From Pseudoroseicyclus tamaricis (GTDB taxonomy: Bacteria; Pseudomonadota; Alphaproteobacteria; Rhodobacterales; Rhodobacteraceae), in the NCBI RefSeq assembly GCF_012070395.1, contig NZ_JAAFYS010000002.1, forward strand, positions 186,001-250,000: a stretch of 64,000 bases of DNA, read 5' to 3'. Positions 8,904-60,472 of the stretch are shown here, piece by piece. A program made the translations under genes and the position numbers. Below the pieces are notes generated by a model. It worked only from the letters and a program-made list of their open reading frames with translations, did no database searches and was not told the origin of the DNA. Every line of letters begins with the position of its first letter. The stretch's first letter is position 1.

Positions 8904-9913
8904 GCCTCTTCGAGCGCTATCTCAGCCTCTGGATCGCCCTCGCCATGGCCGCGGGGATCGCCATCGGCACGCTCGCGCCCGGGCTCGTTGGCGCCGTGGC
9001 GGGGGCAGAGGTCGCCTCGATCAACCTCGTCGTGGCGGTGCTGATCTGGGCGATGGTCTACCCGATGATGGTGGGCGTCGATTTCGGCGCCGTCGCCGGC
9101 GTCGCTCGCCAGCCGAAGGGCCTGCTTGTAACGCTGGCCGTCAACTGGCTGATCAAGCCCTTCACCATGGCGGCGCTGGCGGTGCTGTTCTTCGAGCATG
9201 TCTTCGCCCCCTGGATCGCGCCGGAGGATGCGGCGCAGTACATCGCCGGGCTCATCCTGCTGGGGGCGGCGCCCTGCACGGCGATGGTCTTCGTCTGGTC
9301 GCAGCTCACGAAGGGGGATGCGACCTACACGCTCGTGCAGGTCTCGGTGAACGACCTGATCATGGTCATCGTCTTCGCCCCCATCGTCGCGCTGCTCCTC
9401 GGCGTGACGGAGATCGCGGTGCCGTGGCAGACGCTGGTGCTGGCGACGGTGCTCTACGTGGCGCTGCCGCTGGCGGCGGGGCTGGTCACCCGGCGCTGGC
9501 TCGGCGGGCCGGCGGCGGTGGAGGCCTTCTCGGCCCGCGCCAAGCCGTGGTCGGTGGCGGGGCTGGTCGCGACGGTGCTGATCCTCTTCGGCCTGCAGGG
9601 GGAGGTGATCCTTGAGCGCCCGGGCGTGATCGTGCTGATCGCGGTGCCGATCCTGATCCAGAGCTACGGCATCTTCGCGCTGGCCTACGCGGCGGCCTGG
9701 GTGCTGAAGGTGCCGCACCGCATCGCCGCGCCCTGCGCGCTGATCGGCACGTCGAACTTCTTCGAGCTGGCGGTGGCCGTCGCCATCAGCCTTTTCGGCC
9801 TGAACTCCGGCGCCGCGCTGGCGACGGTGGTGGGCGTGCTGGTGGAGGTGCCGGTGATGCTCTCGCTCGTGGCCTTCGCCAACCGGACGCGGGCGCGCTT
9901 CGCCCCGGGCTGA
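8900..9913 (+). CDS. arsB: ACR3-family arsenite efflux permease
   Basis: This 337-residue, ten-helix protein has the ACR3 signature [20 protein letters not shown] with the conserved Cys needed for arsenite transport, plus [14 protein letters not shown] and [15 protein letters not shown]. It exports the arsenite made by the ArsC half of the fusion protein. It ends the ars operon and converges with the DUF815 gene; the 21-nt gap plus the two stop codons can form a short G/C hairpin (arms CTGAGG 9910-9915 and CCTCAG 9933-9938). ArsB is used here in the wide sense; the family is ACR3, not the E. coli ArsB family. Confidence 0.92.
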
Positions 9914-13690: not shown

Positions 13691-13749
13691 GGTGGGTTGG
13701 AACCCCACCTTACGCACGGGCGATCCGTAGGGTGGGTTTGTAACCCACC
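13691..13749. repeat. Inverted pair of 24-bp GGTGGGTT repeats
   Basis: The left unit 13691-13714 (GGTGGGTTGGAACCCCACC plus TTACG) and the right unit 13726-13749 (CGTAGGGTGGGTTTGTAACC plus CACC) are inverted copies of the same 24-bp motif. Each unit is also nearly palindromic. A third copy lies at 13975-13998 in the left orientation. The right unit and the third copy bracket the first copy of the longer 184-bp repeat. Similar GGTGGGTT...AACCCACC motifs occur between genes in many proteobacteria. Confidence 0.7.
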
Positions 13750-13974: not shown

Positions 13975-13998
13975 GGTGGGTTGGAAACCCACCCTACG
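13975..13998. repeat. 24-bp GGTGGGTT repeat, third copy
   Basis: GGTGGGTTGGAAACCCACC followed by CTACG, almost identical to the unit at 13691 and inverted relative to 13726-13749. The copy-1 long repeat lies between the inverted pair, so the arrangement looks like a small element with terminal inverted repeats. Confidence 0.65.
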
Positions 13999-16859: not shown

Positions 16860-17005
16860 CCGGGCTGCTGGGCGACTACGCGGGCGAGGTCATCTCCGCC
16901 TATATCGTCTCACTGGCGCTGATCGGCGGGCTGGTCTGGCTGTCGGCCCTGCAGGCGCGGCGGGCGAGGAAGCAGCTCAAGCGCGCGGAGTCGCGGCATG
17001 GCTAG
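16856..17005 (+). CDS. ccmD: Heme exporter protein CcmD
   Basis: This small 49-residue protein has one membrane helix (AYIVSLALIGGLVWLSALQARRARKQLKRAE) and a basic tail, the CcmD pattern. It helps release CcmE from CcmABC. It overlaps ccmC by 4 nt and ccmG by 8 nt, so it was placed by context as well as sequence. The ccmE, ccmF and ccmH genes are not in the window. Confidence 0.9.
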   Translation: MTGLLGDYAGEVISAYIVSLALIGGLVWLSALQARRARKQLKRAESRHG

Positions 17006-17546
17006 GGTCTCGCCTCTGGTCGTGCTGCCGCCGGTCATCTTCGCCGCCGTGGCGGGGCTGTTCCTCGGCGGCATGTTCCGCGGCTCCGACGATCTGCCCT
17101 CGCAGTTCATCGGCCAGCCGGCGCCGCCGCTGCCGGAGGCGAGCCTGCCAGGCAAGGCGCCGCTGACGGACGAGATGCTGCGCTCCGGCGAGGTGACGCT
17201 GGTCAACTTCTGGGCCTCCTGGTGCCCGCCCTGCCGCGCCGAGCACCCGGTGCTGAAGGAGCTGGCGGCCGAGGGCTACCGCGTCGCCGGCGTCAACTTC
17301 CGCGACGAGGAGGGGGCGGCGCTAGGATATCTCGAGGATGAGGGCGACCCCTTCCTCGGCTCCGCCTTCGACCCGCAGGGGCGCACGGCGGTGGACTGGG
17401 GCGTGACCGCGCCGCCGGAGACCTTCATCGTCGATGGCGACGGCACGGTCCTTTACCGCTATGTCGGCCCGCTGGTGGGCAGCCAGTACGAGCAGCAGTT
17501 CCTGCCCGCGTTGGCCGAGGCGATGGGCGAGGACCTCACGCGATAG
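16998..17546 (+). CDS. ccmG: Thiol:disulfide interchange protein CcmG/DsbE
   Basis: This 182-residue protein has an N-terminal membrane anchor (about residues 6-26) and a periplasmic thioredoxin fold with the active site WASWCPPCRAEHP. A later EEGAALGYLEDEGDPF region and GVTAPPETFIVDGDG are typical CcmG. It reduces apocytochrome c cysteines before heme attachment. It ends the ccm operon; just downstream begins the palindrome cluster at 17561. Confidence 0.95.
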   Translation: MARVSPLVVLPPVIFAAVAGLFLGGMFRGSDDLPSQFIGQPAPPLPEASLPGKAPLTDEMLRSGEVTLVNFWASWCPPCRAEHPVLKELAAEGYRVAGVNFRDEEGAALGYLEDEGDPFLGSAFDPQGRTAVDWGVTAPPETFIVDGDGTVLYRYVGPLVGSQYEQQFLPALAEAMGEDLTR

Positions 17547-17560
17547 GCTGCGGCCGGGGG

Positions 17561-17604
17561 CGGAAACCATATGGTTTCCGTCTTCGATTTCCATATGGAA
17601 ATCG
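17561..17604. repeat. Paired perfect palindromes, CATATG type, copy 1
   Basis: Two perfect 20-bp palindromes stand side by side: CGGAAACCATATGGTTTCCG (17561-17580) and CGATTTCCATATGGAAATCG (17585-17604), separated by 4 nt. Both have an NdeI-like CATATG centre. They lie between the convergent ccmG and penicillin-acylase genes. The same pair recurs at 21187-21229. Each can form a cruciform or, in RNA, a hairpin on either strand. Confidence 0.9.
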
Positions 17605-17663
17605 GCGCCCTGCGGGGCTGGTGGGCCAGGTTGATCACCCGGTGCTCGGGCTGCCGCCGGGCA

Positions 17664-17709
17664 ACGGAAATCGCGCGATTTCCGTGCACGAATTCCGCGC
17701 GGAATTCGT
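17664..17709. repeat. Paired perfect palindromes, CGCGCG type
   Basis: Two perfect 22-bp palindromes with half-sites ACGGAAATCGC (17664-17685) and ACGAATTCCGC (17688-17709) are separated by only 2 nt. Their flanks (GGAAATC, GAATTCC) echo the pair 60 bp upstream but the centres are GC instead of CATATG. They abut the end of the penicillin-acylase gene (stop at 17716). Confidence 0.88.
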
Positions 17710-17715
17710 CCCCGC

Positions 17716-20184
17716 TCAGTCCGCCGGTTCGAGCCGGATGATCCCCGTCGCCGCGGCGCGGGCGAGGCCGGCGTCCAGCGACATCGGGATGTACTCGCCC
17801 CGGCGCCAGAGGTCGCCCAGATCGTCGTAATGGCGGCTGAGGGGGTGGCCGGACTGGCCGGTGGAGATGACGAAGACCGAGGAATCGGGGTCGGCGAAAT
17901 CGTAGACGCCCCGGTAGGCGGCGGCATGGACATTGGCGAAGGGGTGCTCGCCCGTGCCCGGCGTCAGGCCCCGGTTGAGGGTGAAGTCGCCGCCCGAGGT
18001 CGACTGGCGGATGTTCACGAACCACGACAGGATCGGCACGTTGCCCATCACCTGGTGGTCGTGCCGCGCCACGTGCGCGTCGCCCCAGCGCAGGGACTGC
18101 AGGTCCTGCCCGTAATGTTCGCCGATCCAGACCAGCGCATCGTCCAGCGCCATGCGGGAGAGGTCGGTGCAGCTTTCCACCGGCGCCGATTGCTGGACGT
18201 CGCACCAGACGGCGGCGCCGCCGATGTCGCGGAAGACCCGCTCGATGAAGAGCGGCTCCACATGCGGGAACTCGGCGGCGAAGGGGCCGAGCTCGTCCTC
18301 GATCAGACGGTTCTGAAGCGCCCGGAGCCAGGCGGCGTAGATCAGCGGCTCGGGCAGATGCTCGTTCATCTCACCGTTCCACTCCGCCAGCAGCGCCAGC
18401 GCCTCCTGCCGCTGCCGCTCCGGCGTGCCGTCCGGCGCCGCCTCGCCGGTGAACCACAGGTCCGCCCCGATCAGCGGCAGGAGGTTCCGTGCCGCCTGGC
18501 TGATCGTGTCGAGCTGCGCCTCGATGAAGCTGTCGCGGGTATGGACCTCGCGCTCCTGCATCAGGAACTCCCAGCGCTGCACGCGCTGCGTGTCGCCCCA
18601 GTGGAAGGCGAGGTGCTCGGGGAAGGGGCGGTCGGTGATCTTGTTGTTGGTGTTGCCGAGGATGCCGCCGGCGGGATCGTTGAAGGAGGGGTTCTCCCCA
18701 TAGGGGAAGGTGCCCTGCCAGCGGTTCTCCTCTATGTAGCCGAGGGTGGGCAGGCGCCCGCGGCTCTGGTGATCCGCATCGCGCCGGGGCAGGACGCCGG
18801 CGACCTGCAGGGCGATGTTGTTGCGATCCGCCAGCGTCACGGTCGTGGGCGGGGCGACGAAGCGGGAGAGGGCGCGCTGGCCCTCCTCGACCGAATGGGC
18901 GCGCATGAGGTCGAGCCCGGCGGCGACGGAGGTGTCCTCCCGGCTCAGGCCCGTCCAGTTGGCGGTGGTGACATGGCCCGGCGGGCGGATGTAGGGCAGG
19001 CCGAACTGCTCGGGCGGCAGCACCGGCCCGTTGGCGGACCATTGCAGGTTGATGGTCACGGGCGCGGCGCCCGCGACGTTGATGATCGTCTCGCGCTGGA
19101 CGAACTCCTCCCAGCCGTCGGGGCCGCGGTACTGGTCGGCGTTGGCGGGGTTCACCTCCTCCTGGTAGAGGTCGACGTCGTCGACATAGGTGGTGGTGAT
19201 CCCCCAGCCGAGGTCCGCCGAGCGGCCGGTGAGGATGTTCGGCATCCCCGGGACCGTCGCCCCGATGACACCGCCCGACTGCAGCTCCAGCTGGGCGAGG
19301 TACCAGATGGAGGGCGCCGTCAGCCCCAGGTGCGGGTCGTTGGCCAGCAGCGTCGAGCCGGTGGCCGAGCGGCTGACCGACGCCGCCCAGGCGTTGGAGG
19401 CGCCGCCGAGCGACGGCGGGTTGATGGGCGAGAGCGGCCCGTATTCGGGGTGATCCGCCTCGGCGAAGCTGGTCGCGGGCGCGTTCGGAACAAGGGCGGC
19501 ATATTCCGGCAAGGCGGCGAGGCCGGCGCCGGGGGTGGCGGGCATCAGGTCCTCCACCCGCTCGGACGGCAGGGCGAGCGAGAGGCGGGCGCGCAGCACC
19601 TCGTCCTGGAAGTTGGTGGTCAGCTGCAGGGCCATGATCTTGGCGATGGCCAGCGAATCCGCCGGCTGCCAGGGGGCGATGGCGTGGTTGAAGAGCCACA
19701 TCTCCGGCGCCCCGCGCCCGCGCGCGCCGGCATTCACCTCGGTGATCCACGCGTTGACGCCGGCGGCATAGGCTTCCAGCGCCGAGAGGGCGTATTCGTC
19801 CTGCACGGCGACGGAGGCGGTGGCGGCGCCGTAGATATCCAGCCGGCGCAGCAGCACGTCGGTGGAGAGGGTGCGCGCCCCGAAAAGCTCGCTCAGCCGC
19901 CCCTGCGCGGTGCGGCGCAGCGTGAGCATCTGCCAGAAGCGATCCTGCGCATGGGCGAAGCCGAGCGCGTAGTAGACGTCGTCATCCGTGGCGCCGAAGA
20001 TATGCGGCACGTCGGCATTGTCGCGCACGATCTCCACCGGGGCGCTGATCCCGGCGACCTCGAAGGTGCCCGAGTAATCGGGCAGCGAGCGGGAGGCGAA
20101 GTAGTAGACGAGGGCGACGGCGCCGAGCGACAGAACAACGAGCCCGACCGCGATGCGGAAGAGCCAGCGAAATGCGGTGCCCAT
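17716..20184 (-). CDS. Penicillin acylase family Ntn hydrolase
   Basis: This 822-residue protein has one N-terminal membrane anchor (RWLFRIAVGLVVLSLGAVALVYYF), an alpha-subunit region (VEIVRDNADVPHIFGATDDDVYYALGFAHAQDRFWQM), and the autoprocessing site GGASNAW, whose Ser becomes the N-terminal nucleophile of the beta subunit, followed by STLLANDPHLGL. A late NKIT and FHWGDTQR region fits the same family. Members cleave amides such as penicillins or N-acyl homoserine lactones; the substrate cannot be told from sequence. The start at 20184 follows a readable aaggggac; longer readings upstream lack family character. It is monocistronic and points away from the divergent hydroxyacid dehydrogenase gene. 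Confidence 0.88.
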   Translation of the reverse strand: MGTAFRWLFRIAVGLVVLSLGAVALVYYFASRSLPDYSGTFEVAGISAPVEIVRDNADVPHIFGATDDDVYYALGFAHAQDRFWQMLTLRRTAQGRLSELFGARTLSTDVLLRRLDIYGAATASVAVQDEYALSALEAYAAGVNAWITEVNAGARGRGAPEMWLFNHAIAPWQPADSLAIAKIMALQLTTNFQDEVLRARLSLALPSERVEDLMPATPGAGLAALPEYAALVPNAPATSFAEADHPEYGPLSPINPPSLGGASNAWAASVSRSATGSTLLANDPHLGLTAPSIWYLAQLELQSGGVIGATVPGMPNILTGRSADLGWGITTTYVDDVDLYQEEVNPANADQYRGPDGWEEFVQRETIINVAGAAPVTINLQWSANGPVLPPEQFGLPYIRPPGHVTTANWTGLSREDTSVAAGLDLMRAHSVEEGQRALSRFVAPPTTVTLADRNNIALQVAGVLPRRDADHQSRGRLPTLGYIEENRWQGTFPYGENPSFNDPAGGILGNTNNKITDRPFPEHLAFHWGDTQRVQRWEFLMQEREVHTRDSFIEAQLDTISQAARNLLPLIGADLWFTGEAAPDGTPERQRQEALALLAEWNGEMNEHLPEPLIYAAWLRALQNRLIEDELGPFAAEFPHVEPLFIERVFRDIGGAAVWCDVQQSAPVESCTDLSRMALDDALVWIGEHYGQDLQSLRWGDAHVARHDHQVMGNVPILSWFVNIRQSTSGGDFTLNRGLTPGTGEHPFANVHAAAYRGVYDFADPDSSVFVISTGQSGHPLSRHYDDLGDLWRRGEYIPMSLDAGLARAAATGIIRLEPAD

Positions 20185-20285
20185 GCTATGTCCCCTTGCG
20201 CTCCTGCCACCGGGGGGCGGATTGACGCGCCGGCCCCGGCTTCTAGGGTCAGCTACCAAATCTCTCGGGCAGAAGGAATGTGGAG

Positions 20286-21164
20286 ATGGCCAAACTGGCG
20301 TTTCTGGGATTGGGCGTGATGGGCTTTCCCATGGCCGGGCATCTGGTGGCGGCGGGGCACGAGGTGACCGTCTACAACCGCACGCCCGCCAAGGCGGAAG
20401 CCTGGCTCGATGCCCATGGCGGACGCAGCGCCGCCACCCCACAGGAGGCGGCGGCGGGGGCGGAGTTCGTCATGGCCTGCGTCGGCAATGACGATGACCT
20501 GCGGGCCGTCTGCCTTGGCGAGACCGGCGCCTTTGCCGGCATGGGCAAGGGGGCGGTGTTCGTCGATCACACCACCGTCTCGCCGGGTGTGACCCGCGAG
20601 CTGGCGGCGCACGCTGGCGAGGCGGGTCTCGGCTACGTCGACGCCCCCGTCTCCGGCGGGCAGGCGGGGGCGGAGAAGGGGCAGCTCTCCGTCATGTGCG
20701 GCGGGGCAGAAGCCGATTACGCCGCCGCCGAGCCGGTGATCGCCGCCTATGCCAAGATCTGCCGGCGCATCGGCGAGGTCGGCGCCGGTCAGGTGACCAA
20801 GGCCGCCAACCAGATCGCCATCGCCGGGCTCGTGCAGGGGCTGAGCGAGGCGCTGCATTTCGCCGAGAAGGCGGGGCTCGACGGGCGCGCGGTGGTCGAG
20901 GTCATCTCGCAGGGCGCCGCCGGCTCCTGGCAGATGGAGAACCGCTACGAGACCATGCTGGACGACGCCTTCGAGCATGGCTTCGCGGTGGACTGGATGC
21001 GCAAGGACCTCGCCATCTGCCTGAAGACCGCCGATGAGACGGGCGCCTCGCTCCCGGTCACGGCGCTCGTCGACCAGTTCTACAAGGACGTGCAGAAGAT
21101 GGGCGGCGGGCGGTGGGACACCTCCTCGCTCTTCAAGCGGCTGAGGAGGATCGACGGCGACTGA
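20286..21164 (+). CDS. 3-hydroxyisobutyrate dehydrogenase-type NAD(P)-dependent oxidoreductase
   Basis: This 292-residue protein opens with the Rossmann motif LAFLGLGVMGFPMAGHL and has VDAPVSGGQAGAEKGQLSVMCGG (substrate-binding signature) and GQVTKAANQI with the catalytic Lys. Beta-hydroxyacid dehydrogenases of this group act on 3-hydroxyisobutyrate, tartronate semialdehyde or succinic semialdehyde; which one is not clear here. The ATG at 20286 is preferred; a GTG two codons earlier is possible. It diverges from the penicillin acylase gene and is followed by the second palindrome pair. Confidence 0.88.
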   Translation: MAKLAFLGLGVMGFPMAGHLVAAGHEVTVYNRTPAKAEAWLDAHGGRSAATPQEAAAGAEFVMACVGNDDDLRAVCLGETGAFAGMGKGAVFVDHTTVSPGVTRELAAHAGEAGLGYVDAPVSGGQAGAEKGQLSVMCGGAEADYAAAEPVIAAYAKICRRIGEVGAGQVTKAANQIAIAGLVQGLSEALHFAEKAGLDGRAVVEVISQGAAGSWQMENRYETMLDDAFEHGFAVDWMRKDLAICLKTADETGASLPVTALVDQFYKDVQKMGGGRWDTSSLFKRLRRIDGD

Positions 21165-21186: not shown

Positions 21187-21229
21187 GGAAACCATATGGT
21201 TTCCTTGCACGATTTCCATATGGAAATCG
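21187..21229. repeat. Paired perfect palindromes, CATATG type, copy 2
   Basis: GGAAACCATATGGTTTCC (21187-21204), then a 5-nt linker, then CGATTTCCATATGGAAATCG (21210-21229): the same two palindromes in the same order and orientation as at 17561-17604. The linker differs (TTGCA against TCTT), so the palindromes themselves, not the surrounding sequence, are conserved. It lies between convergent genes. Confidence 0.9.
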
Positions 21230-33875: not shown

Positions 33876-33993
33876 GAGGGGATCGGCGCGGGGCGGAGGT
33901 CACCTCCGCCCCGCGCCGCCCAAGGTGCCGCCGGCGCGCGCCCCCGCGCCCGGAACGGGCCGCTGCCCCGGCCCCGGCACCAAGAGTCCGCGC

Positions 33994-39228: not shown

Positions 39229-39300
39229 AGAGGGGGGCTCTGCCCCCCGTCGCCCCGAGGGGCGACTCCCCCCGCGGTATTTTTGGCCAGATGAAACGGG
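39229..39300 (+). repeat. G-rich intergenic hairpin element, copy 4
   Basis: GAGGGGGGCTCTGCCCCCCG, a CGCCCCGAGGGGCG inner hairpin, then CCCCCGCGGTATTTTTGGCC and AGATGAAA. This is the classic form of the element in Rhodobacterales, with the GGCCAGATGAA tail, lying between cysS and cimA. Confidence 0.78.
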
Positions 39301-60405: not shown

Positions 60406-60472
60406 CTCGCTTTTCCCGAAGTATCCTCGGGGGGGCTGGCGGAGCCAGCCGGGGGGCAGACTGCCCCCCTCC
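60406..60472 (-). repeat. G-rich intergenic hairpin element, copy 8
   Basis: CTCGCTTTTCCCGAAGTATC then CTCGGGGGGGCTGGCGGAGC and CAGCCGGGGGGCAGACTGCC. Minus-strand orientation, in the divergent gap between the RACo-like gene and the ABC exporter gene, so a terminator role is unlikely here. Confidence 0.72.

Follow-up and report, generated by a model that had tools for sequence, protein, structure and literature searches.

The closest described counterparts of the repeats analyzed here are the REP, BIME and REPIN elements with their RAYT transposases, which likewise are short extragenic palindromes, present in multiple copies near gene ends, often paired, lineage-specific and accompanied by an associated gene beside copies of the repeat. 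In the broad definition, REPs are extragenic, palindromic and short (units of 14-40 nt), share a common consensus and occur in multiple copies per genome (PMC12306157); tagged REPs carry GTAG or CGTC at one end (PMC3733652). Another class of relevance is the hairpin-cluster terminators, which consist of two or more hairpins less than 15 nt apart, are located no farther than 80 nt from a stop codon and do not need a U-tract (PMC8355165). The tandem palindromes ("doublets") described below, which were found in a 64,000-nt stretch of the Pseudoroseicyclus tamaricis genome (hereinafter, the window), differ from REP, BIME and REPIN in that they are perfect palindromes at a fixed spacing of 22-25 bp, lack the conserved GTAG/CGTC tag, reside in a genome without a Y1 transposase and are associated with a gene, denoted here X, that encodes a 75-aa basic protein.

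Tandem palindromes in the window

The sequence-only reading of this locus had identified four perfect palindromes of 20-22 bp, paired with gaps of 2-4 nt, and both the coordinates and the symmetry were reproduced in our analysis (Table 1). The two members are separated by 4 nt in doublet A and by 2 nt in doublet B, with a centre-to-centre distance of 24 bp in both, and the two doublets occupy the 169-bp gap between the stop codons of the convergent ccmG and penicillin acylase genes. That reading mentioned neither the genome-wide repetition nor the third doublet, which is of the CATATG type. The accompanying claim that such palindromes exceed the random expectation holds as well: the window contains 3 gapless palindromes with 10-bp arms, compared to 0.35 expected per 64-kb window from second-order Markov shuffles, and 2 with 11-bp arms, compared to none in the shuffles. 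RNA folding turns the doublets into two adjacent hairpins of 8-12 bp on either strand, with a z-score of about -4 for doublet A and for the third doublet (21187-21229). A search of the whole window against Rfam 15 at the gathering score produced two tRNAs only, and no match for the doublets.

Table 1. Palindromes and adjacent genes in the window (positions are those of the window)
Feature	Positions	Strand	Remarks
Doublet A, first palindrome CGGAAACCATATGGTTTCCG	17561..17580	.	20 bp, perfect; arms GGAAACC, centre ATAT
Doublet A, second palindrome CGATTTCCATATGGAAATCG	17585..17604	.	20 bp, perfect; arms GATTTCC, centre ATAT
Doublet B, first palindrome ACGGAAATCGCGCGATTTCCGT	17664..17685	.	22 bp, perfect; arms GGAAATC, centre GCGC
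Doublet B, second palindrome ACGAATTCCGCGCGGAATTCGT	17688..17709	.	22 bp, perfect; arms GAATTCC, centre GCGC
Third doublet (type A), first palindrome	21187..21204	.	22 nt past the stop of the 3-hydroxyisobutyrate-dehydrogenase-like gene
Third doublet (type A), second palindrome	21210..21229	.	CATATG type
ccmG-like thioredoxin gene	16998..17546	+	stop 14 nt before doublet A; named from the sequence-only reading and gene order
Penicillin acylase family gene	17716..20184	-	stop 6 nt from doublet B
3-hydroxyisobutyrate-dehydrogenase-like gene	20280..21164	+	upstream of the third doublet

Wherever doublets of types A and B share a convergent gap, they are about 60-62 nt apart (17605-17663 in the window); this was observed at four loci, including L011 and L014, and A and B between convergent genes look as if they formed a single composite element, about 150 bp in length. 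The best plasmid matches of the penicillin acylase come from Paracoccus (53-54%). Several other repeats were observed in the window. A GTAG-tagged palindrome of the classical REP type (GTAGGGTGGGTT...AACCCACC) is present in two copies of opposite orientation (13727-13749 and 13975-13997), and locus L019 holds a similar copy, although the genome is still without a Y1 transposase match. A perfect inverted repeat with a 17-bp stem, CGGCGCGGGGCGGAGGTCACCTCCGCCCCGCGCCG, lies at 33884-33918, just past an apparent stop at about 33873, and is possibly a GC-type terminator. At 39232-39266 and 60434-60469, there are two tandem pairs of GC-rich hairpins, which do not resemble the AT-cored doublets.

A dispersed family at the 3' ends of genes

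The scan of the genome for the motif, suggested by the sequence-only reading, revealed a recurrent repeat. In the 3.85-Mb genome, GGAAACCATATGGTTTCC occurs 21 times, GGAAATCGCGCGATTTCC 15 times and GATTTCCATATGGAAATC 18 times as exact copies, and the reversed control patterns never; the patterns GGAAAYCNNNNGRTTTCC and GAWTTYCNNNNGRAAWTC produced 47 and 51 matches, respectively, again with none for the reversed controls. The sites that were fetched resolve into 53 doublets and 5 single palindromes, so that at least 53 doublets are present genome-wide; three further matches to a covariance model (C1:68037, C1:975134 and C3:61516) fall outside this set. The palindromic units are perfect and 18-26 bp long, with gaps of 2-5 nt within doublets, and the centres are 24 bp apart in every one of the 27 A doublets, and 23 or 24 bp apart in the B type (26 doublets). 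None of the 53 doublets is contained in a called gene. Thus, in unit length, copy number and extragenic location (save for the doublets that, in certain genera, occur at the end of X), the family conforms to the broad concept of REP (PMC12306157).

The placement of the doublets is strongly biased. The nearest stop codon is within 30 nt for 43 of 52 doublets (median 13.5) and within 60 nt for 47, in a gene set called by our own simple codon-usage scorer, so that individual coordinates are approximate; with the short gaps between the palindromes, this is the geometry of the hairpin clusters (PMC8355165). The doublets lie between convergent genes in 26 cases, between co-directional genes in 26 and between divergent genes in 1, as compared to 10, 35 and 19, respectively, in 140 kb of unbiased sequence, where intergenic gaps measuring 45 nt or more were counted. 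Relative to the gene, they are found in both orientations, with no preference. The suggestion that the palindromes are bidirectional terminators finds no support in its classic intrinsic form, that is, a GC-rich hairpin followed by a U-tract: TTTT occurs within 16 nt on either side of only 1 of the 53 doublets, terminator calling gave no call at the doublet sites, and in some genera the doublet lies within the end of an open reading frame.

The flanks of the doublets are unrelated in sequence, and no conserved GTAG/CGTC tag of the kind that defines tagged REPs (PMC3733652) is present in the aligned flanks of the 53 doublets. The Y1 (RAYT) transposase family PF01797 has no match in this genome, which is 99.8% complete, compared to matches in 5 of 14 control genomes, and mobilization by a RAYT in cis was accordingly discarded. 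Three other ideas fared no better. An outer stem enclosing both hairpins was rejected because the flanks pair no better than shuffled partners; a functional regulon, because 20 neighboring proteins are unrelated and share no common function; and kissing loops, because complementary loops are seen in some genera only, others having identical loops that are not palindromic (TGACGCA twice, by eye).

Symmetry and covariation of the arms

Among the 756 pair cells of 42 distinct doublets, 98.4% hold standard pairs, and double changes in the arms number 92 compared to a shuffle mean of 26, these cells counting sequences rather than events; the arm variants seem to go back to a small number of ancestral changes, which then spread. 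In the comparison between genera, each of the 16 pairs varies on both sides, 99.1% of the cells are paired and one-sided changes account for 2 of 320. One-sided G-U cells are scarce (3 of 756), which is unusual if the constraint is purely at the RNA level and implies that either the hairpins are equal on both strands or the double-stranded palindrome itself matters. With G-U pairs and strand preference both nearly absent, symmetric action on both strands fits the data. Quasipalindrome correction during replication could also create such symmetry.

Alternatively, the doublets might be double-stranded DNA sites for X or another symmetric protein, with one dimer per palindrome and two dimers 24 bp apart, functioning in nucleoid organization, as a transcription roadblock or in cruciform recognition between convergent genes. 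The perfect symmetry with almost no G-U pairs, the lack of preferred orientation, the conserved centre spacing of 22-25 bp and the enrichment between convergent genes are all compatible with this possibility. Nevertheless, we regard it as unlikely given that the arms and centres are wholly different between genera, and partly within the genome, with pairing kept, which is unusual for sequence-specific sites, and that the strict placement 3' of genes suggests that transcripts matter.

Doublets in other genera and the X gene

A scan of 84,980 species with the exact motif produced 15 isolated single matches in unrelated taxa, the motif being otherwise confined to this genome. As to the presence of the palindromes in near relatives, a point raised by the sequence-only reading, tandem palindromes of the same geometry were found in other genera, with exact sequences specific to each genus: genus G073 has its own doublet, CGATTTCCGCGCGGAAATCG + CGGAAACCGCGCGGTTTCCG; the palindromes of G011 have the centres TGCA, TCGA and CCGG; and G033 has pairs of GCAAATTCCTTCGAAGGAATTTGC. 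The sequence of the doublet is thus lineage-specific, and its architecture is common to other genera of the family. G033 additionally harbors a separate, dispersed single palindrome, GCGTCCGAGCTCGGACGC, in four copies per 200 kb (L098 10984, L102 13819, L103 13475 and L106 2687). In the collection of papers that was searched, no description of such repeats in Rhodobacterales was found.

In five genera, the doublets were found behind one shared gene, X, a small basic gene of 75 aa (MAALAPVTPQVFFDELLSSRAARRGEVVRRNVRVVERYVGREIFVREMRRRGYSVVENAGQFVIFCNSAPVRRIV at locus L017) that was detected in 56 of 120 genera by a single-sequence search and in 57 by a profile. Ten residues are invariant (G25, R30, R37, G40, E47, R51, G52, N58, C66 and N67), and the pI of six members is 9.6-11.4. 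Searches against Pfam, NCBIfam and PDB detected no convincing relative and no recognized fold; the best PDB match, to norovirus capsid proteins (E 0.012), was judged spurious. Under a strict test (tandem, perfect stems of at least 7 bp), 26 of 30 genera have a doublet 3' of the conserved X domain, as opposed to 1 of 454 background windows; of the remaining four, three (L166, L181 and L189) have doublets that by eye are imperfect, and L175 seems to have an interruption in the first hairpin. Upstream of X, no doublet was found in any of the 30 genera. The gene downstream of X varies, by eye, from trpB to D-lyxose-isomerase-like and ribbon-helix-helix-like genes and convergent genes; the junction of X with the D-lyxose-isomerase-like gene, considered as the anchor of the doublet, is kept in few genera only, the anchor being X itself.

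X is also found on plasmids, the closest plasmid-borne X coming from Roseobacteraceae. On the Tropicibacter oceani plasmid NZ_CP124617.1, X is WP_317133913.1, annotated as 'aspartate aminotransferase', and the doublet at X (9828-9874) is the sole doublet in 100 kb of the plasmid. No X was found in viral contigs or phage records. The Streptomyces sp. NBC_01216 plasmid NZ_CP108678.1 encodes a distant homologue (L266 2013-2204; 33%, E 6e-6), a hypothetical protein by annotation, with no evident doublet downstream by eye; X may belong to a family wider than the range of the doublets.

In L168, L170, L173, L185 and T. oceani, the first hairpin precedes the stop codon of X and hence would be no efficient terminator of X there, unless loss of the stop is intended. 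This observation bears on the possibility that the doublets are ordinary factor-independent bidirectional terminators, that is, hairpin clusters, with an incidental association with X. Two adjacent, stable hairpins past stop codons are what such terminators would look like, and hairpin clusters without U-tracts have been proposed to terminate transcription (PMC8355165). However, apart from the near absence of U-tracts, the doublets differ from the described clusters in being near-identical repeats, with AT-cored perfect symmetry, a phylogenetic tie to X and a location that is sometimes within the end of an open reading frame. Near-identity at 53 sites is not needed for termination, and the distribution of X and doublets among genera (see below) would be left unexplained, so we consider this explanation very unlikely.

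Co-occurrence of X and doublets

A covariance model of the doublet (R1) was scanned over a sample of 120 genera, with both strands counted, and produced matches in 36 genera, up to 44 per genome. All 36 doublet-bearing genera possess X: using R1, which was trained on X-bearing genera such that differently sequenced doublets in X-less genera could escape it, doublets were detected in 36 of the 57 genera with X and in none of the 63 without (Fisher p = 4e-16). Among the 21 X-bearing genera with no R1 match, some have a doublet at X that R1 missed (for example, G034, G084 and G128) and others have only a distant X. Because of the training bias of R1, a sequence-free scan was also made. In X-bearing genomes, inspection identified 3 AT-cored tandem hairpins in G000 (141 kb) and, per 200 kb, 2 in G033, 6 in G134 and 3 in G122, and one more pair, in G011, was doubtful; the 398 kb scanned in two X-less genomes yielded no AT-cored doublet and one GC-stemmed pair. 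On a single, weakly resolved gene tree of 30 genera, the presence of X changes at least 9 times and that of doublets 7 times, with clustering no greater than in shuffles; this scatter indicates that the association is not one clade counted repeatedly.

These observations have to be weighed against the possibility that the doublets are REP-like selfish or passenger repeats, spread by a transposase supplied in trans or by recombination and harmless at gene ends, with X as a genetic neighbor or the founder locus. The lineage-specific sequences with near-identical copies within one genome, the unrelated flanks, the functionally unrelated host genes and the few apparent ancestral arm variants would all be accounted for. 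Such a scenario nevertheless appears rather improbable to us: the genome has no Y1/RAYT transposase, of the kind found in some of the control genomes, X tracks the doublets in 36 of 36 genera, the doublet of X itself holds a fixed place despite the differing downstream neighbors, and divergent intergenic regions are almost wholly avoided.

A candidate protein-and-hairpin system

The palindromes are best read as members of a REP-like family of 3'-terminal tandem doublets that lacks RAYT and is coupled to X. The association of X with the doublets suggests a so far unrecognized protein-and-hairpin system, with X as a concrete candidate protein acting on the palindromes. We estimate at roughly one half the probability that X is a hairpin-binding partner and that the double hairpin acts at the 3' ends of transcripts. 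The broader notion of a two-part system that acts post-transcriptionally or at the DNA level, consists of a small basic protein of no recognized fold and dispersed tandem palindromic hairpins, and is rewritten in concert in each genus without a transposase of the RAYT kind, appears to us evenly balanced between true and false.

Each doublet is a pair of perfect palindromes, about 20 bp long and with AT cores, at a centre distance of 22-25 bp; it is located at a gene 3' end and folds on either strand into two neighboring hairpins, and its sequence is particular to the genus and common to the dispersed copies there. Under the proposed mechanism, X would bind the double hairpin, RNA in transcript 3' ends being the more likely target and DNA a possible one. 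Through the doublet at its own 3' end, X might control its own message, and at the dispersed copies, it might serve as a 3'-end factor that affects stability, processing or readthrough. Known RNA-binding proteins offer partial parallels. The ANTAR two-hairpin RNA motif is a case where a small domain may recognize short hairpins in tandem as a unit, as might hold for the doublets; the ANTAR motif, however, is located in leaders and has a hexaloop, whereas the doublets are at 3' ends with AUAU or GCGC loops, and X has no Pfam match. Proteins of the ProQ/FinO type are basic RNA-binding proteins that act on 3'-end hairpins of many messages, much as proposed here for X. None of the Pfam families, however, is detectably similar to X.

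RAYT transposases are the usual explanation for REP-like elements; the partner that tracks the elements here is, instead, a 75-aa basic protein, and its presence in all 36 sampled doublet-bearing genera makes for a directly testable protein-element pair. The link to the doublets also offers a putative function for a small gene that is labelled 'aspartate aminotransferase' in one public record. Provided that the hairpins are its targets, X would add a not yet recognized fold to the proteins that bind RNA or DNA, with dozens of sites per genome, and the doublets would represent a case where position and structure are conserved while the sequence is replaced in concert across genera.
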